DNA of 64,000 bases, taken from assembly GCA_022678445.1 (NCBI GenBank), contig JALBWU010000006.1:62001-126000 (forward strand), in the 5' to 3' direction. The stretch's first letter is position 1, and the number at the start of each line of letters is the position of its first letter. Under the pieces are notes generated by a model that worked only from the letters and a program-made list of their open reading frames with translations, was not told the DNA's origin and ran no database searches. The translations under genes were made by a program, and so were the position numbers. Shown here piece after piece: positions 6,129 through 48,404 of the stretch. Source of the DNA: Candidatus Aramenus sp. CH1 (GTDB taxonomy: Archaea; Thermoproteota; Thermoprotei_A; Sulfolobales; Sulfolobaceae).

Positions 6129-6859
6129 ATGCTATGGAGGAATTTAGCGAGTTTAGAAATATAAGGGCTATACTTTTTGATTTTGATAATACTCTTTTAA
6201 ATTTTGAGCCAAATTCACTTAAAGCGCTTCAGGAAGTCGCCAGGGAAATACACGACTACATAATAGATAATGGTTTCTCACTTTCCATTACACATGAAGA
6301 AATTTACAATACGTTGCTGTCTATTTCGTCTAAGTTTGATTCCGAGGGAGTATATGACAGAACCGTGTGGTTTAACACTCTCCTTGAGAAGATACACGTT
6401 AGTGCTAGTAAGGACCAAGTCCTAGAGTGGGTGTCGCTTTACTGGTCAATTGCCAGTATGGCAAGGCCGTTTGAGGAGGTACAAGACACGTTAGAATTCC
6501 TAAAGAAAAAGGGGTATAAGCTAGGGATAGTTACTAACAGCGATGGCGAAGGTGGGAACAAGCAAAAGAGAATGGAAAGATACGAGTTTACAAAGTTGTT
6601 TGACGTTGTTGTTATTGGAGGGGAAAACAACATAAAACCTAAGCCAAGTGTTCAGCCCTTTGTTTACGCCTGCGAAAGACTTGGATTCCAACCTTCTCAA
6701 TGTGCGATGGTGGGGGATGACCCCGTAAAGGACTGTCTTGCAGCAAAGAAAGCGGGAATGATGGCGATTTTAGTAGATCGTCAAGGTAAAGTAAAGTTTG
6801 CCGAACTCTACGCTGACTTTGTCATAGACGAAATGGAGGAGCTACAGGAAGTCTTTTAA
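6125..6859 (+). CDS. HAD-superfamily hydrolase
   Basis: Probable phosphatase of the haloacid dehalogenase superfamily. The nucleophile motif DFDNT is at residues 19-23, motif II at VTNSDGEG, the motif III lysine in NIKPKPS, and motif [10 protein letters not shown] near residue 200. The helical insert after motif I is a C1-type cap, as in phosphoglycolate-phosphatase-like and Ctdp-like members; the substrate cannot be told. The GTG start overlaps the EF-2 stop by four bases, with an alternative ATG at 6134. The 3' end overlaps the tail of the minus-strand M28 peptidase gene by 18 bases. Confidence 0.88.
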
Positions 6860-8263
6860 GATCTGATCTATGATATAATTATATATTTTTATGTATTCCT
6901 CTACCTTCGATGAGATATATTGTTCGTGAAAGTTGGATTGGACTATTTCCTCTGCAGGTGAACCCTCTATGTATACTTTTGGATTGGACCTCAAAAGGTT
7001 TATCGCAAAGAAGTGCGGGAAAGGCCTTACGATTGCGTAGGTATCACTTGAGCCCATAACACCTCCATACAACTTGAAAAGCCTTGTACCAAGAGGCTTC
7101 CAGATACTTATTGTGTTTAGTAAATTAACACTGTGGGACCTCAACGCTAAGGGTAACGAGTGCATGGCTTCAAGTAGGTCTTGTGATATCTCATTAACGC
7201 TTACCTCAATCTTATCGTTTAGCATTCTCCTCAATGTAGCGACTACGCTCAGGAACCCTTCCTCTTCTTCTTGTGTGACCAAGTCGGAATCGCTGTGGTA
7301 ATTCTCGTTAACTCCCTCAACTGTGATAGTCGGTACTCCTTTCTTAAAGAAACTGTAACCATCGCTGTATATTTCAACTTCCCCTTTCGCTTCAGTGAAG
7401 AACTTCCTAGCTAGGCCAATTACGCCAGGGGAAGCCTTTACTACTAGGCTTGAAGGTACGACGTTGTCTAGGTTAATATTGAGTGCGGCGTTTTCTACTT
7501 CCTTTATCTCTTCTACGAAACGCCTAGACCCATAGCTCCAAGAAAAGGAAGAGAAGTTAGGGGACCCACTTTCTTCCGCCGTAAAGCTAACAAGGTGTAT
7601 CTCGTATTTTTCGCTCTTGATTTCCTCCATTATTGGTATAGAGGCTAAATTGTCGTGCTCCCCGGCTAACCAGTGGTCGTGATGAGAGGTAACGTATATC
7701 TTCTCCTCGCCTCTAGAGTTCCTTATGGCCTCAAGGATGTACCCTGTAGACCTCCGCACTGTGGGGAAGTTCTTCACAGATAAACTTTCTTTTATGTGGG
7801 CAGAATCTGTCCTCCTGACGTAAAAGGCGGGAATTGGAGGAGGTGCAGAGGACGAGAGATTAAGTAGGGGAGGGTTATTTACGACAAATTTCCTTACCTT
7901 GTCATCTAAGGTAAAGACTACGAACTGACAACCCGAACGGACAGCCTCCAGGTAGTATTTGTTCACTTCGTAGAGGTTCTTTAGCTCTATTAACGCGCCC
8001 GAGTTCTTACATTCCTCTACGCTCCTGGAAATTCTACCGGAGAAGTCTATAGAGGGAGAGTAAGGAAATGCAACAGCTTCTATTTCCTTCTCTCCCTCGA
8101 TGAACGCCTTCGACTCGTAATGTAACACTTCTATGGGATAAACCCTCCTTTCGTCGACGCCGGTTAAGATGTCCTCTATCTTAGAGACGAGTTTTCTCTC
8201 TTTAGGATCTCCGGCTACTACTTCGCCAAGTCTAGAAAGATCTTTTACTCTTTCGTATATCAT
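6842..8263 (-). CDS. M28-family zinc aminopeptidase
   Basis: Co-catalytic zinc peptidase of the M28 type, likely cytoplasmic because no signal peptide is seen. Metal-binding motifs appear in order: SHHDHW, then EHDNLAS (bridging aspartate), FTAEES (general base and ligand glutamates), LDNV and NYHSDSD (last histidine). The N-terminal 190 residues contain an insert that may be a PA-type domain. The start is taken as ATG 8263 (MIYERVKDLSR); upstream in-frame codons up to 8281 would run into the start of the divergent DUF447 gene. An AAAATATC TATA-like element at 8290-8297 sits 27 bases upstream, within that gene's coding region. Confidence 0.85.
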   Translation of the reverse strand: MIYERVKDLSRLGEVVAGDPKERKLVSKIEDILTGVDERRVYPIEVLHYESKAFIEGEKEIEAVAFPYSPSIDFSGRISRSVEECKNSGALIELKNLYEVNKYYLEAVRSGCQFVVFTLDDKVRKFVVNNPPLLNLSSSAPPPIPAFYVRRTDSAHIKESLSVKNFPTVRRSTGYILEAIRNSRGEEKIYVTSHHDHWLAGEHDNLASIPIMEEIKSEKYEIHLVSFTAEESGSPNFSSFSWSYGSRRFVEEIKEVENAALNINLDNVVPSSLVVKASPGVIGLARKFFTEAKGEVEIYSDGYSFFKKGVPTITVEGVNENYHSDSDLVTQEEEEGFLSVVATLRRMLNDKIEVSVNEISQDLLEAMHSLPLALRSHSVNLLNTISIWKPLGTRLFKLYGGVMGSSDTYAIVRPFPHFFAINLLRSNPKVYIEGSPAEEIVQSNFHEQYISSKVEEYIKIYNYIIDQILKDFL

Positions 8264-42019: not shown

Positions 42020-42680
42020 CAAGGTAAAAGTAATAGAGCTTTTGGAGCCGGACTTCTTTGGCTTCACTCTTAATCATAACGTGGTCGTGTCCAAGAACGC
42101 CCCAGGGGGTGGGCTCTTGCTAATAGACACTAGCCTCCCGGAGAACTTGGACGAGCTTGAGAGGAGACTGAAAGCGTGGGGGTACTCTATTGAGGACGTG
42201 TCCGACGTAGTTGTGACCCACTTCCACCCAGACCATTACGGCAACGCCGAGGAGATAAGGAGGAGGGCGAAGGCCAAGGTCTACGCCCACTACCTAGAGG
42301 ACGTGGTGGAGGGGGAGATAACCTACTCCCAAGCAAAGGAGGAGTTCAACGTAAGCGAGGAGGACTTCGAGAGGACTGTAAAGAGGATATCCGCCTACAA
42401 GTTGCCAAAGCCCACAGTTGACGTGTCCTTGAGGGGAGGGGAGAGGATAGGCGACTTCCAAGTTATACATACGCCGGGCCACACTAAGGGGCACGTAGTC
42501 CTCTTCGACGGCCAAGTGCTCGTAACAGGGGACGCCGTGAGGAACTACAACGGGCTCAGGCCCCCGGTGAAGTTCTTCTGCTGGGACTATCAGAAGGCTG
42601 TGGAGCAGTTCCACTTCCTCTTGAACTTGCCTTACCGCTTCCTCATACCCTATCACGGAGAGGTGGTGACCAAGTGTTAG
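42003..42680 (+). CDS. Metallo-beta-lactamase-fold hydrolase
   Basis: Binuclear zinc/iron hydrolase of the MBL fold. Metal-binding motifs: [13 protein letters not shown] (HxHxDH), [14 protein letters not shown] and a final PYHGEV histidine. 225 aa, close to the glyoxalase II / hydroxyacylglutathione hydrolase-like group; the substrate cannot be inferred. It overlaps the U32 gene by 17 bases and the AhbD-like gene by 7 bases, so it is translated in step with them. Confidence 0.88.
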
Positions 42681-43729
42681 CCCCCTACATAGTTGTGTGG
42701 GAGAGCACAAAGGCCTGCGACTTTGCATGTAAGCACTGTAGAGCAAAGGCCATACCAAACAGGCTACCCGAGGAACTCACGAAGGAGGAGGTGTTCTCCC
42801 TGATTGACGACCTCTCCAGCTCAGGAGTGAGGCTGTTCGTGATAAGCGGAGGAGATGCGCTGAAGAGAGACGACATCTTCGAGATAGCGGAGTACGCCTC
42901 AAAGAGGATAACCACCGCAATCTCGCCCAGCGGCAGTAAGATTGACCTGCAGGTGGCAAGGATGTTAAAGGAGAGCGGAGTCGCAATTGCCTCAATAAGC
43001 ATAGACGGCCCTGAAGAGGTGCACGACAAGTTCAGGGGCGTGAAGGGGGCCTTCGCAATAGCCAAGAAGGCCATAGAGTCCCTGCAACGGGCTGGCATAC
43101 CGGTTCAAGTAAACACCACCATAAGCAAGCACAACGTGGGCAGGCTAGAGGAGGTTAAAAGGACTGTGCTCTCCTTCCATCCAGTGAGCTGGGACGTCTT
43201 TGTCCTCATTCCGACGGGGAGGGCGACGAGGGACATGATGATCTCCCCAGAAGAGAACGAAGTAGTGATGAGGACTGTGTACAAGTGGAGGCACGAGGAG
43301 GGGATAAACGTGAGGATGACTTGCAACCCCTACTACGTGAGGGTGTCAAACGAGCTGGGTAGTAAGGCTTTGCCCCCGGACCGGAAATATGGGAGGAGAA
43401 GCGTTGAGGGGGCAAGGGGATGCATGGCGGGCAACGGTTACGCCTTCGTTGCCTACGACGGCACAGTCTACCCCTGCGGTTTCCTCCCAGTCCCTGCAGG
43501 TAACGTCAGGGTAAAGAAGTTTAGCGAGATCTACAGCGATTCCCCCGTGTTTAAGGCTTTGAGGGGACAGCTTAAGGGCAAGTGCGGGGTCTGCGAGTAC
43601 AGCACCGTGTGCGGTGGGTGTAGGGCGAGGGCGTACTCCTTGACGGGGGACTTCCTCTCGGAAGACCCCTTCTGCACTTACGTTCCCCTGAGGGTGAGGT
43701 TGAGTGATAAGCGTGTCCAGGCTAGTTAA
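42674..43729 (+). CDS. ahbD: Radical SAM/SPASM protein, AhbD-like (heme synthase)
   Basis: Radical SAM enzyme with the cluster motif CDFACKHC near residue 15 and a C-terminal SPASM-type domain: GCMAGNGYAFVAYDGTVYPCGFLP, then CGVCEYSTVCGGCRARAY and a final C. This layout matches AhbD, which oxidatively decarboxylates Fe-coproporphyrin III to heme b in the siroheme-dependent route, and the closely related NirJ group. GTG start overlapping the MBL gene by 7 bases; overlap of 26 bases with the AhbC-like gene. AhbD is preferred because the partner gene is clearly AhbC-like; a peptide-modifying role cannot be excluded. Confidence 0.72.
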   Translation: MLAPYIVVWESTKACDFACKHCRAKAIPNRLPEELTKEEVFSLIDDLSSSGVRLFVISGGDALKRDDIFEIAEYASKRITTAISPSGSKIDLQVARMLKESGVAIASISIDGPEEVHDKFRGVKGAFAIAKKAIESLQRAGIPVQVNTTISKHNVGRLEEVKRTVLSFHPVSWDVFVLIPTGRATRDMMISPEENEVVMRTVYKWRHEEGINVRMTCNPYYVRVSNELGSKALPPDRKYGRRSVEGARGCMAGNGYAFVAYDGTVYPCGFLPVPAGNVRVKKFSEIYSDSPVFKALRGQLKGKCGVCEYSTVCGGCRARAYSLTGDFLSEDPFCTYVPLRVRLSDKRVQAS

Positions 43730-44837
43730 CGGGAAAAGGGAGAGGTCAGACGAGATAAGGTTCCCCACCTCCAGGGACGTCTACCCAAAGGTGTTGGTGT
43801 TTAACGTAACTAGGAACTGCAACTTGAGGTGCGTCCACTGCTACTCCAACTCCGGGCTGGGCAAGTTCCAAGACTTGCCCCTCTCAACGTGGCTAAATGC
43901 GGTAAAGCAGGCAACGGAGATGGGGGTTAGGCACATCTTGCTCTCTGGAGGGGAGCCCCTAGCAAGGAGGGACTTGGCGGAGATAGCCAAGGAGGCCCAC
44001 GACTTTGGGATTTCGGTGGAGCTGTCCACAAACGGCACAATGCTCACAAGGGAGAGGGTGGAGGAGCTCAAGAGGTACGTTAGCTACGTTGGGGTGAGCG
44101 TAGACGGCCCTGAAGAGGCGCACGACAAGTTCAGGGGAGTACAGGGCGCCTTCAGGAAGGCATTGGAGGGAATAAGGACCGCAAAGGAGGCCGGTGTAAA
44201 GACGGGGCTGAGGTTCACCCTCACCAGGCTAAACTACCAGTACGTCGACTTCGTCTTCGACTTGATGGAGAAAGAGGGGATAGACAGGGTGTGCTTCTAT
44301 CACTTAGCTTACGCAGGAAGGGCTGACGTAAAGCTGGACATAGACAATTGGACTAGGCTGAGCGTTATCGAGAGGATAGTGGAGAGGACTAGGGAGAACA
44401 AGGAGATCGAAGTCTTGACTGCAGACAACCCTGTGGACGGGGTGCTTATATACGCAATGACCAGGAACGAGGAAGTGCTTAGACTCTTGAGGAGGAACGG
44501 CGGGAACAGGTCGGGAGAGAGGATAGCCGACGTCAGCCCAGAGGGCGTTGTGTACCCAGACCAGTTCACCCCAATACCCATAGGAAGGATAGAGAGGCTG
44601 AAGGAAATATGGGATGAACCAAACGAGGTGGTGGACAAGCTGAGGGTAAGGAAGAACTACTTGAAGTGCTCCTCCTGTCCCTTCTTTGACGTGTGCAACG
44701 GAGGGCTCAGGGGGAGGGCCTTGGCGGTAACTGGTGACCTCTGGGGTAAGGATCCTTCCTGCTACTTGGAGGAGATAGCGAAGAAGTACGACCTCAAGCT
44801 TCACGACTTCAAGCACCCAGAGGCTGAGTCTAAGTAA
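43704..44837 (+). CDS. ahbC: Radical SAM/SPASM protein, AhbC/NirJ-like (didecarboxysiroheme deacetylase)
   Basis: Radical SAM enzyme that in the alternative heme pathway removes two acetate side chains from 12,18-didecarboxysiroheme. The SAM cluster motif is CNLRCVHC (residues 37-44). AhbC/NirJ hallmarks follow: GLRFTLTRLNYQY, RVCFYHLAYAGRA, EVLTADNPVDGVLIY, LLRRNGGNRSGERIADVSPEGVVYPDQF, and a C-terminal cluster CSSCPFFDVCNGGLRGRA with a last C. 377 aa. Last gene of the operon, overlapping the AhbD-like gene by 26 bases. AhbA/AhbB, which act earlier, are not in the window. Confidence 0.82.
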   Translation: MISVSRLVNGKRERSDEIRFPTSRDVYPKVLVFNVTRNCNLRCVHCYSNSGLGKFQDLPLSTWLNAVKQATEMGVRHILLSGGEPLARRDLAEIAKEAHDFGISVELSTNGTMLTRERVEELKRYVSYVGVSVDGPEEAHDKFRGVQGAFRKALEGIRTAKEAGVKTGLRFTLTRLNYQYVDFVFDLMEKEGIDRVCFYHLAYAGRADVKLDIDNWTRLSVIERIVERTRENKEIEVLTADNPVDGVLIYAMTRNEEVLRLLRRNGGNRSGERIADVSPEGVVYPDQFTPIPIGRIERLKEIWDEPNEVVDKLRVRKNYLKCSSCPFFDVCNGGLRGRALAVTGDLWGKDPSCYLEEIAKKYDLKLHDFKHPEAESK

Positions 44838-44886: not shown

Positions 44887-45078
44887 ATGGGAGATGACTT
44901 TAAAAATACTCAGGAAAATATATACTCGGTGATGGAGTTGAGGAGCAAGGTTGAGGAAGCAAAGATCACTGACCTACCGGAGGAGTACCTAAGGCTGGAA
45001 TACCCTGAAGAGTGGAAGATGATCCAGGAGACAAAGGACAGGGACTTGAGGATTGCCCTTATCTTCTTCAGGAACTGA
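44887..45078 (+). CDS. Small hypothetical acidic protein
   Basis: 63-codon ORF with its own TATA box 25 bases ahead of the ATG. The product is charged (many K/E/D), begins MGDDFKNTQENIYSVMELRS, contains LPEEYLRLEYPEEWKMIQ and ends ALIFFRN; it is predicted helical, without cysteine, membrane segment or signal. No family is recognised. It follows the heme operon by 49 bases but its promoter suggests separate expression. It could be a small regulator. Confidence 0.5.
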   Translation: MGDDFKNTQENIYSVMELRSKVEEAKITDLPEEYLRLEYPEEWKMIQETKDRDLRIALIFFRN

Positions 45079-45142: not shown

Positions 45143-45532
45143 TCACTGTCCCCCTATTTCCTCCTGTTTCTTGGGCGGGAAGTAGGAGACGTTGGGCCCA
45201 AGCTCGTCCTCCATTGCCCTCCCTAGGTAGAAGGAGGAGTTCTGCAAGTTGAGGAAGTACCGCCTCACGTCTTCTTTACTAGCGTAAACGCTAGCCTCCA
45301 TGGACGCGAGGGCGTTCATTACCTCCTCCCCGGCAACTGCCCTCAAGTCCTCCCTCATGACCTCGAATTGGCTGGCCAAGTAGGAGAACACGTCATCAAC
45401 TCCCAACGCCTTGTTTAAGTCGTCAAGGTTAAGCCCCTTGTCCAAGAGGAGGAGGGAAAACCTAGCTATGTTTTCTAACCTCTCCAAGTACCTCCCAGCC
45501 CAGTAGACCTTGTACGCCGTGCTCTTAATCAA
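45143..45532 (-). CDS. Alpha-E domain protein, short form
   Basis: Short (129 aa) version of the helical alpha-E domain (DUF403), usually around 300 aa in bacteria. The signature is AYKVYWAGRYLERLENIARFSLLLLD at the N-terminus; DVRRYFLNLQNSSFYLGRAMEDELGPNV follows. Alpha-E proteins are encoded beside circularly permuted ATP-grasp and transglutaminase-like genes in a proposed peptide or amide-bond forming system, exactly the set found here. It overlaps the transglutaminase gene by 8 bases. The small size suggests a minimal archaeal form or loss of the second half. Confidence 0.78.
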   Translation of the reverse strand: MIKSTAYKVYWAGRYLERLENIARFSLLLLDKGLNLDDLNKALGVDDVFSYLASQFEVMREDLRAVAGEEVMNALASMEASVYASKEDVRRYFLNLQNSSFYLGRAMEDELGPNVSYFPPKKQEEIGGQ

Positions 45533-46322
45533 CCCTTTTCACCTCCACCTTTAGCTTGGAGAGCCAACCCCTCCCCCTACTCACGAAAGTCCCGACCACT
45601 GGAGCAACGTCCTTGTAGTCCCTGCCCACCGCGAACTTCACGTAGGCTAGGTCGTAGAACCTGTGCCTCGTGGGGTCTATGGGAACCCACCCGTTCCTCG
45701 CCTTCACCTCAACCCAAGCGTGGGTGATCCTAGGGTTGTCGTTAACTAGTCCCATGACGTACCTAGCTGGGACCCCCGCAGACCTGAGTATTCCAATGGT
45801 TATTTGGGCTATGTCCTGGCACACTCCTAAACCCATGGTGAAGCTCTCGTGGGCCTTGGTCCATACGTTGGTCACCCCTTCCTTGTACTTCACCCTTTCC
45901 CTCACAAGCTCCACAGTCCTCCTCACCAGCTGGTCTAGTGTCTCGCTACTCCTCAGCACCTCCTTAGCAACCCCCCTGAAGAACTCCACGTCTATTAGGC
46001 TTGAGGAGGAGGTGAAGGCGTCGTCCTCTGTGCAGGGTAACTTGCAGTCCTCGAATTCCCTCACGTCCACCTCTACCACCCCTTTACTCGTGATGGTAAA
46101 GGAGGTGTGGGGCTCCATTACCTTCACGTGGTATATGATGTTGCCGAACCTGTCCCTGAACTTGTCCACGTATCCCTTGGGCGTTGTGTTGAGGCCCTCC
46201 TCTAGAACCCTCTGGTTATCCCCGTCGTATGGACTAACCCTCAGCACGTTGTCGTTCAGCGTTACCACGTCTTCGTACTCGTACACAGCCTCGTAGAGCG
46301 TGGAGTACTTCACAACACCCAT
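45525..46322 (-). CDS. Transglutaminase-like cysteine protease-fold protein
   Basis: 265-aa protein with an N-terminal beta domain common in this group (YSTLYEAVYEYEDVVTLNDNVLRVSPYDG) and the papain-like core: catalytic Cys in MGLGVCQDIAQITIGILRSAGVPARYVMG, His in THAWVEV and Asp in WVPIDPTRH. All three catalytic residues are present. It lies between the alpha-E and ATP-grasp genes and overlaps both (8 and 13 bases), so the three are one translational unit. It may cut or form isopeptide bonds. Confidence 0.88.
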   Translation of the reverse strand: MGVVKYSTLYEAVYEYEDVVTLNDNVLRVSPYDGDNQRVLEEGLNTTPKGYVDKFRDRFGNIIYHVKVMEPHTSFTITSKGVVEVDVREFEDCKLPCTEDDAFTSSSSLIDVEFFRGVAKEVLRSSETLDQLVRRTVELVRERVKYKEGVTNVWTKAHESFTMGLGVCQDIAQITIGILRSAGVPARYVMGLVNDNPRITHAWVEVKARNGWVPIDPTRHRFYDLAYVKFAVGRDYKDVAPVVGTFVSRGRGWLSKLKVEVKRVD

Positions 46323-47623
46323 ACCGGCTTCACCAATCCTCCAGAGGAGTTATTGGTCACCCTAGTGCCAAGGGGGGCCACCCTGCTCAGCACGGTATTT
46401 GAGGTATCCCCTAGGAAGACGAAGAACCTAAGGTCCGCGTAGGCCTCGTAGAAGTTATCGTTCATTGTTGAGAGCACAGTGTCGAAGTCGAGTAGCTCTT
46501 GTACCATGAAGTCCTCTGGGTAGCTCATTGCCTCTCTTATCACCTTAGCCCTTTCCTCCTCCTTCATCTCCTTTAACACGAAGGTCTCACCTCCTCCGTA
46601 CCCCTCTCTCCTCTTGAGGACTAGGTTCTCGAACTTCTTCATAGCCTGTTCCTTAGACGTCCCAAGGGGGATGGAGAAGGGCTGTTTTACCCCAACTTCC
46701 TTTAGCCCGTACTGCTCCATGATCTGTGGAATGAAGCAGAACGTGACCTTGTCGTCAGCGACCCCAGTGCCAGGGGCGTTAACTAAGTTGATCCACCCCC
46801 TTAAGTAGGCCTTGGTCAACCCTGGAGTCAGCAAGTCGAGGTCCTCAATCCTCCTGTATATGACGTCTAGATGCACCTCCCCCTTCGTCGTCTTCGCTAC
46901 TACCTCCTTTTCCCTCACAGCTAGGTCTGATGGCTCCACCAGGAGGAGGTCAAGTTTCTCAGAATAGAACTTGTGCTCGAAGTAGGCGGAGTTGAGCGTG
47001 CCGTCGGTTAGGATAGCAACTACGGGATCCCTCGTGTCGGAGGCATACTCCAGAGTCTTCCTCAGCTTCTCAAGTCCGTCCAGCTTCCCCCTCCTCAGGG
47101 GAAGGAAGGAGCCTAAGACCCTGTCGACGAGCTCGTTGGCCTTTATGGCGTAGCTCATCCCAGAGGGTACCCTAACGTTGTCCTCCAGAATGTAGGGCAT
47201 CCCACCAACCTTGACCACGTCCTCTCCCATGATGTGTATGTAAACTCCCTTGGGCGGATCAAAGTACATCATCTCGGGCCTAAAGTAAGGGGAGGAGTGA
47301 ACTAGGTCCCGGGGGACTGGAGTGTCCTCGTTGTGGTAAACGGAGTAGAGGAACTTGTTTATTGCAATTGCCCTAGTCCTGAGCCCCTCTGCAACCACCT
47401 CCAGTTCCTCCCTCTTCAGTATCCTTGGTATGGGGTCTACCTTTATGCCCCTGTAGTATCCCCTAGTGTAGAAGGTGAACCCCTCCCGGTACGCCAGTTC
47501 GTTGATGAGGTCGACGTAGCGGAAGAAGTTGGGAATCTTCTCTAGATAGGAGAGCAACTCAGCGTAGCGGGGGTCGAGGTACTCGTAAAAGGAAGAACCT
47601 CCCTGTTTTTTAGGTTTTATCAT
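46310..47623 (-). CDS. Circularly permuted ATP-grasp protein
   Basis: ATP-dependent carboxylate-amine ligase of the circularly permuted ATP-grasp type 2 group. Start ATG 47623 gives 437 aa beginning MIKPKKQGGSSFYEYLDPRY and is backed by a TATA box at 47643-47652; the frame open to 47854 would add 77 unlikely residues. Core motifs: ILEDNVRVPSGMSYAIKANE, VAILTDGTLNSAYFEHKFYSEKLDLLLVEPSDL, INLVNAPGTGVADDK, FENLVLKRREGYGGGETFVLKE and a C-terminal DLRFFVFLGD segment. Usual partners (alpha-E and transglutaminase) follow in the operon. The substrate is unknown; glutamate-like or peptide ligation has been proposed for relatives. Confidence 0.88.
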   Translation of the reverse strand: MIKPKKQGGSSFYEYLDPRYAELLSYLEKIPNFFRYVDLINELAYREGFTFYTRGYYRGIKVDPIPRILKREELEVVAEGLRTRAIAINKFLYSVYHNEDTPVPRDLVHSSPYFRPEMMYFDPPKGVYIHIMGEDVVKVGGMPYILEDNVRVPSGMSYAIKANELVDRVLGSFLPLRRGKLDGLEKLRKTLEYASDTRDPVVAILTDGTLNSAYFEHKFYSEKLDLLLVEPSDLAVREKEVVAKTTKGEVHLDVIYRRIEDLDLLTPGLTKAYLRGWINLVNAPGTGVADDKVTFCFIPQIMEQYGLKEVGVKQPFSIPLGTSKEQAMKKFENLVLKRREGYGGGETFVLKEMKEEERAKVIREAMSYPEDFMVQELLDFDTVLSTMNDNFYEAYADLRFFVFLGDTSNTVLSRVAPLGTRVTNNSSGGLVKPVWVL

Positions 47624-47642
47624 AAGTAGAGATCTGTTGAGA

Positions 47643-47652
47643 TAATATAAAA
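47643..47652 (-). promoter_or_regulatory. TATA box of the ATP-grasp operon
   Basis: Minus-strand TTTTATATTA centred 25 bases before ATG 47623. It settles the start of the ATP-grasp gene. Confidence 0.5.
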
Positions 47653-47924: not shown

Positions 47925-48404
47925 ATGTCCGACGAGTTCGAGGAGGAAAGGCTAATAAAAACAAAAAAGGCTTACCTAGTATACACCCTCTCAGATCCCT
48001 ACGTGTTCGCGGGAATCTCAGGTCACATGACAATTTACAGGGTGTTCGACCAAAAGCTAGGTTATTTCGTCCCACCCGCAGACGCCCAATACCCTGCAAA
48101 CAAGTACAAGGCTAACGTGATCGTCAGGGAAGAAGGAGACAACGTCAAGGTAGTTGACGCTGTGCTGGAAGGACCTTACTTACTCCCGAACTTCGTGAGT
48201 TACAAGATCACAGGAGACAAGGTAATGGGCTCCTTTGAGTTCACGTTCAAGCAGAGGGAAGAGGGGGTATTGGTGGGGATTAGAGTTGAGGTCGACTATA
48301 AAGGGTGGTTCACCTCGAGGAGCGACAGGCTGGCGGAGCACTTGGTGAGGAAGCACTTTCTCTATCAGCTTTCAAAGGTCTCAGCTATTGAGGTCGTGAG
48401 GTAG
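47925..48404 (+). CDS. STK_08120-type (DUF3211) SRPBCC-like protein
   Basis: 159-aa protein that resembles the Sulfolobales-specific STK_08120/DUF3211 family with an SRPBCC (START-like) fold: strand-rich N-terminus (KAYLVYTLSDPYVFAGISGHMTIYRVFDQ), central strands (YKITGDKVMGSFEFTFKQREEGVLVGIRVEVDYKGWF) and a long C-terminal helix (RLAEHLVRKHFLYQLSKV). Such folds bind hydrophobic ligands; none is known here. Single gene with a good promoter, divergent from the ATP-grasp operon. Confidence 0.6.
   Translation: MSDEFEEERLIKTKKAYLVYTLSDPYVFAGISGHMTIYRVFDQKLGYFVPPADAQYPANKYKANVIVREEGDNVKVVDAVLEGPYLLPNFVSYKITGDKVMGSFEFTFKQREEGVLVGIRVEVDYKGWFTSRSDRLAEHLVRKHFLYQLSKVSAIEVVR

Follow-up and report, generated by a model that had tools for sequence, protein, structure and literature searches.

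A single-repeat alpha-E protein in a compact ATP-grasp/transglutaminase-like gene trio of Sulfolobaceae, with a possible use in nitrogen scavenging

The 64,000-nucleotide stretch of Candidatus Aramenus sp. CH1 DNA analysed here (the window) carries on its minus strand, at 45143-47623, three overlapping genes in the order ATP-grasp, transglutaminase-like (TGL) and alpha-E, the last encoding a single copy of a unit that bacterial alpha-E proteins hold twice. We regard it as an even call whether this single-repeat archaeal system, with its putative amide chemistry, is used in nitrogen scavenging. The features discussed are the following.

46310..47623, minus strand: leading gene of the operon, encoding a 437-aa circularly permuted type 2 ATP-grasp protein (PF14403)
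45525..46322, minus strand: transglutaminase-like cysteine enzyme (TGL), 265 aa (PF01841 and PF08379)
45143..45532, minus strand: alpha-E protein of one repeat, 129 aa from a TTG start (PF04168, above the cut-off)
45146..45196, minus strand: residues 113-129 of alpha-E, a C-terminal tail in which Q123 and E125 do not vary across the Sulfolobaceae alignment
47643..47652, minus strand: TATA-like stretch TTTTATATTA, as read from the sequence

As the initial annotation had claimed, all three genes are present, each with a Pfam match, and all three overlap: the TGL gene starts at 46322 and the ATP-grasp gene stops at 46310 (13-nt overlap), and alpha-E starts at 45532 with the TGL stop at 45525 (8-nt overlap). 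The first overlap is found in all 12 relatives fetched and the second in 11 of them, the exception (L022) having a broken TGL frame. That the trio sits in an archaeon also holds, its relatives including Sulfolobus sp. UBA167 (L047), and the available part of PMC5666114 already places these genes in archaea. The outer limit of 47652 has to be moved, as there is no in-frame start there; the start conserved among relatives is the ATG at 47623 (L015, L016 and L017 likewise encode 437 aa), and 47652 is the upstream end of the TATA-like stretch, the centre of which lies ∼25 nt upstream of that ATG. On the plus strand, two overlapping radical SAM genes (42674-44837) match TIGR04053 and AhbD (heme b synthase) in the first case and NirJ1 and AhbC in the second, strongly and below the curated cut-offs, and are possibly a heme-biosynthesis or related pair; right after them comes an open reading frame of 63 aa (44887-45078, plus strand) with no convincing family match. 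A 159-aa protein encoded divergently from the trio (47925-48404, plus strand) has no Pfam or NCBIfam match.

The first product is a circularly permuted type 2 ATP-grasp protein, matching CP_ATPgrasp_2 (PF14403) at E 1.3e-77 and the solved structure 3n6x at E 1.1e-57 with residues 14-437 aligned. Each of its residues K337, G343, G344, Q375, D397, R399 and N424 is shared by at least 97% of 110 aligned proteins from archaea and bacteria; we take these to be putative ligase residues, presumably including those that bind ATP. A Yersinia ATP-grasp protein frees phosphate from ATP, according to the accessible part of PMC6376114. The TGL matches Transglut_core (E 5.7e-20) and Bact_transglu_N (E 4.2e-16), with 3isr as solved relative (E 5.9e-14), and has the Cys-His-Asp residues of a transglutaminase-like enzyme. 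That these catalytic residues are intact had been stated before and is borne out by the invariance of C168, H201 and D216 in 12/12 intact Sulfolobaceae copies (alignment A3, in which 12 of 13 rows were kept and the broken TGL of L022 was left out). When archaeal and bacterial TGLs are aligned jointly, D170, H201 and D216 occur in 59/59 rows and C168 in fewer than 95% of them. The TGL frame of L022 (9290-9907, plus strand, genome G021) stops at 205 aa, as either a pseudogene or a sequencing error would produce, and the ATP-grasp and alpha-E genes of that locus are intact.

The third product is a member of the alpha-E family by the PF04168 cut-off (28.6 bits against 20.8, E 1.5e-6) and by its ER motif, E17 and R18 being invariant. 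The match runs over profile positions 5-71 of 294; the full-length two-repeat architecture is lacking, and we therefore file the protein as a single-repeat variant. WAGRYLER is invariant in the Sulfolobaceae alpha-E alignment. With 129 aa, where the bacterial median is 318 aa, the protein is indeed less than half the usual length, as noted earlier, and comparison of the two domains gives 129-181 aa for 18/18 archaeal copies and at least 310 aa for 61/62 bacterial ones. The bacterial genes were found by motif (62 genes) in 79 further loci, comprising 78 bacterial loci and L050; the search of named genomes behind them retained the best 80 out of at least 590 relatives. Clustering detects alpha-E in 70/79 loci and the motif in 62 places, leaving about eight outside the length count. 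The 61 genes kept encode 310-357 aa, counted from just upstream of the motif. The remaining one, in L106, was dropped from the counts as apparently frameshifted: its frame (6648-7049, plus strand) has 133 aa, and by eye the second repeat seems to run on in another frame. On 16 plasmid loci, picked for diversity out of 117 records, every alpha-E protein also has at least 310 aa, one of them being fused to ATP-grasp (L174).

A remnant of a truncated gene would be just such a protein, far below the bacterial lengths, and the broken TGL frame of the relative L022 would be in keeping with decay of the operon. We nevertheless consider decay highly improbable, as all 18 archaeal copies are short and have a glutamine-bearing tail at their end, the ER motif is invariant across the 17 rows of alignment A6, and in an ATP-grasp tree a single branch (SH-aLRT 100) parts the 18 archaeal rows from the 93 bacterial ones. 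The sign of decay named in the initial annotation, a longer alpha-E gene in relatives with a frameshift here, is absent: ATP-grasp occurs in 13/41 genomes of the order (the window's included), the same 13 have an adjoining short alpha-E, and no two-repeat alpha-E was seen at this locus in close relatives among the genomes searched. The alpha-E matches in the 13 genomes are open frames of 131-157 aa, of which 11 exceed the Pfam cut-off and two fall below it yet are detected by blastp. Frameshift decay of alpha-E is thus rejected.

Across the phylum the trio is patchy, 12/398 sampled genomes having ATP-grasp, and the window's congener G001 is without it. The archaeal set of 18 consists of the 13 genomes, the Sulfolobaceae G281 and G305, G154 and G358 from another order, and the Desulfurococcales locus L050. 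The tree is unrooted, and long branches were flagged by the tool; without a root, the single repeat as ancestral state and the single repeat as result of loss look alike in it. Its bacterial rows exclude L047 and the archaeal L050, and the fused L174 protein was left out. Weak PF04168 matches in G228, G268 and G293 are all below the cut-off, and an HMM scan of loci from these three genomes gave one weak match (L141, E 4.6e-4); among viruses, 18 pattern matches included no relative. On a Sphingomonas plasmid, a gene annotated as arginyltransferase adjoins the trio (L165:7795-8592, minus strand), and a urea carboxylase-associated gene lies in the same stretch.

The bacterial protein itself bears on the relation between the short and the long form. 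Its N- and C-terminal halves match each other by HHalign at E 2.8e-26 with a score of 155 (the best of 50 column shuffles reached 19.4), an HMM of the N-half matches 61/61 C-halves at E <1e-3, and a predicted bacterial model (mean pLDDT 93.3) contains an eight-helix series twice in the same order. The AlphaFold2 model of the window alpha-E is one helical bundle of five helices (mean pLDDT 89.8). With extension forced, the alignment of an L139-based archaeal profile spans 132 columns of the bacterial N-half (E 4.7e-10) and 133 columns of the C-half (E 1.3e-8); at default settings, archaeal and bacterial profiles align over 22 residues at the ER motif only. The alpha-E of G358 retains a stretch resembling the second bacterial motif (SSISSCLKMAREN), and by its sequence it bridges the one-repeat and two-repeat forms. 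Taken together, the half-to-half matches, the models, the forced alignment and the G358 stretch lead us to read the archaeal protein as one repeat, the bacterial alpha-E being an internal tandem duplication. What had been called a minimal functional core can accordingly be described more sharply, as one of the two tandem bacterial repeats. The archaeal protein probably forms a homodimer that imitates the bacterial two-repeat protein. In searches for fold relatives, the bacterial profile had no sequence relatives in the PDB up to E 1, Foldseek returned no match at E ≤1e-3 for either the short or the long model, and VIA-align listed assorted helical bundles and membrane proteins, with best Z of 11.4 (short) and 9.3 (long), levels that according to the tool are common for helical bundles. 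KslB, a weak match for the short model and absent among the long-model matches listed, was dropped as a fold relative. Our searches of open-licence papers turned up no description of an internal duplication in alpha-E, of a one-repeat form in archaea or of glutamine tails.

In the archaeal set, such tails end the alpha-E proteins. The last 17 residues of the window protein are predicted with low confidence (pLDDT 65 and 57 in the final two blocks) and, to judge from the model, are probably disordered, while Q123 and E125 within them do not vary across 13 Sulfolobaceae (alignment A2), in which identity to the window alpha-E is 34-55%. In the final 20 residues, a Q precedes another Q or an E in 18/18 archaeal and 15/61 bacterial alpha-E proteins. 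Bacterial glutamine-rich tails, often alternating as QxQxQ, sit on alpha-E or on TGL; the aligned archaeal TGLs end without one. By a rule set after the tails had been seen (at least two Q in the last ten residues, or Q last), tails are present on 21/61 alpha-E proteins and on 23/47 members of the TGL cluster, one of which is archaeal (L050) and some of which do not adjoin alpha-E, against 3/78 ATP-grasp proteins, 4/27 Anbu-like proteins and 11/278 other plausible genes of the same loci. At least three Q in the last ten residues are found in 13/61 alpha-E proteins, 14/47 TGLs and 0/278 other genes; Fisher p values on such counts ignore relatedness. The same rule applied to the 16 plasmid loci picks out 6/16 alpha-E proteins, two of them (including the fused L174 protein) only through a Q in last position, and 5/10 adjacent TGLs, with adjacency counted by hand. 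Over 43 bacterial rows of the ATP-grasp tree, the trait changes seven times for alpha-E and six times for TGL. An either/or swap of the tail between the two proteins gave a raw Fisher p of 0.03 (34 loci) and a median p of 1 over six independent tree pairs, too few informative pairs to reach significance; the pattern finds no support on the tree, and complementarity is therefore not claimed. Where the initial annotation had found no substrate gene evident, a candidate now lies within the trio, namely the conserved glutamine-bearing tail of alpha-E itself, which we propose from its sequence as a candidate substrate or docking strand.

A setting for such a system is suggested by its neighbours. 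In 5/15 Sulfolobaceae loci, from three genera, the trio adjoins nitrogen-acquisition genes; in the remaining loci, the neighbours were read mainly by eye. L016 has amidohydrolases, a carbon-nitrogen hydrolase, a xanthine-dehydrogenase-like subunit and an AsnC-type regulator on one flank and, on the other, a class-I glutamine amidotransferase, a nitrite/sulfite reductase and a urease cluster (UreAB, UreC, UreE-like, UreG-type and UreD by family search, UreF by eye), and L017, of the same genus, is laid out similarly. Urease genes (UreD) and an arginine deiminase lie beside the trio in L025 and also in L143, together in the latter with a nitrite/sulfite reductase, a molybdopterin oxidoreductase and an MFS transporter, and L024 has hydantoinase A/B, an AsnC-type regulator and a cytosine/purine permease. 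Phosphoesterase-like genes also adjoin the trio (L016:9552-10529, L025:4586-6779, L143:4766-6961), in the same two genera as the trio-adjacent urease. In the 64 kb of the window, no nitrogen genes are obvious by eye, as in several other Sulfolobaceae loci, and the urease of the window's genome is on another contig. Eight genomes have the trio and a strong urease match, within 10 kb of each other in three (two of five genera), a proximity with a chance of ∼7e-4 by a rough, post hoc estimate. Co-occurrence of trio and urease is not claimed, as urease is present in 8/13 genomes with the trio and 3/12 without it among 25 genomes of the family (Fisher p 0.11). In bacteria, the portions available of three papers connect these genes with nitrogen: a Burkholderia cenocepacia cluster (DUF404/407, DUF403, transglutaminase-like) belongs to an NtrC/sigma54 regulon with urease genes (PMC5491218), P. 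putida PP_2686-2688 are induced under nitrogen limitation with urea transporters, in a putative NtrC/sigma54 regulon (PMC7801951), and DUF403/404/407 abundances in marine metagenomes correlate with those of urea genes (PMC3597751). We infer that PP_2687 and PP_2688 are the alpha-E and ATP-grasp genes. The nitrogen neighbours of the Sulfolobaceae trio agree with what these papers say of the bacterial trio and its links to NtrC and urea.

ATP-grasp folds are known for ligase chemistry and Cys-His-Asp enzymes for amide chemistry, and we infer peptide or amide ligation by the trio. In the mechanism we favour, the ATP-grasp protein would activate a carboxylate as acyl phosphate and couple it to an amine, the TGL would reverse or transfer the amide bond via a Cys168 acyl-enzyme, and alpha-E, probably as a homodimer, would be a scaffold offering its C-terminal glutamine tail to both enzymes, such that ATP-driven amide formation and its reversal would take place on or beside this scaffold, within nitrogen acquisition when nitrogen is scarce. 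A more far-reaching and doubtful extension is that the glutamine-rich tail, on alpha-E in archaea and many bacteria or on TGL in many Pseudomonadota, could be the missing substrate of Anbu operons, a protein-borne amide carrier on which ATP-grasp loads, and TGL unloads, nitrogen-bearing groups under nitrogen limitation, with the archaeal one-repeat alpha-E as the unduplicated state of the bacterial scaffold. For the archaeal member, the open-licence papers searched yielded no enzymatic activity, partner or substrate. Also against the favoured mechanism, the part available of PMC6376114 reports that Yersinia Anbu showed no specific interaction with other operon proteins and that none was detected among these proteins.

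The nearest rival to the favoured mechanism is that the product of the trio would be a metabolite, either a soluble small peptide or a modified amine, with alpha-E a mere structural adaptor and its tail a docking peptide. The structure 3n6x, a relative of the ATP-grasp protein, bears the name of putative glutathionylspermidine synthase, and the QxQ spacing of many bacterial tails would suit an extended docked strand; however, no transporter or further biosynthetic gene is conserved with the trio, whose three clusters are the only ones common to all 13 loci compared, and we consider this reading rather unlikely, though not far behind the favoured one. Less plausible still is a link to proteolysis, in which the tail or tagged proteins would be fed to a proteasome-like protease. 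Available parts of PMC5666114 and PMC6376114 contain proposals of this kind for Anbu operons, and Anbu-like genes occur in 27/79 loci (by eye, from N-terminal sequence), but the archaeal flanks compared contain no gene conserved beyond the trio, and the Anbu proteins of PMC6376114, in the part available, did not cleave the substrates tried.

We retain as favoured the amide chemistry on or beside an alpha-E scaffold. The Anbu-operon system is spread over many bacterial phyla and reacts to nitrogen starvation in the species cited, and its substrate was not found in the literature searched. The compact one-repeat form is a simpler object for structural work and reconstitution and shows which part of alpha-E is sufficient, and with the recurring glutamine tail there is a candidate substrate that is specific, open to mutation and testable in archaea and bacteria alike.

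Akin to the archaeal trio, the bacterial Anbu operon has the same three families in tight order with catalytic residues in common, but its alpha-E has two repeats instead of one, and an adjacent bacterial TGL gene (34 loci) follows alpha-E, as opposed to the Sulfolobaceae order of ATP-grasp, TGL and alpha-E. No Anbu-like gene is among the clusters common to the archaeal flanks, where no fourth ORF cluster occurred in all 13 loci compared. Two further systems are comparable in how they work only. The LysW/ArgW systems of Sulfolobus and Thermus employ a small amino-group carrier with a C-terminal acceptor residue, the LysX ATP-grasp ligase and a releasing enzyme, whereas the window trio has a circularly permuted ATP-grasp protein and a helical protein. 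Pupylation (Pup-PafA-Dop) uses a disordered Gln-bearing tail, a ligase and an amide-cleaving partner; GGQ, the chance ending of the window tail, is not conserved in relatives. RloABC, described in the part available of PMC12239564, was not considered further, being a different system. Finally, the same part describes RimK, an ATP-grasp enzyme that extends the C-terminus of RpsF and thus acts, as we propose for the trio, on a protein C-terminus, from a rim locus described there without alpha-E or transglutaminase.
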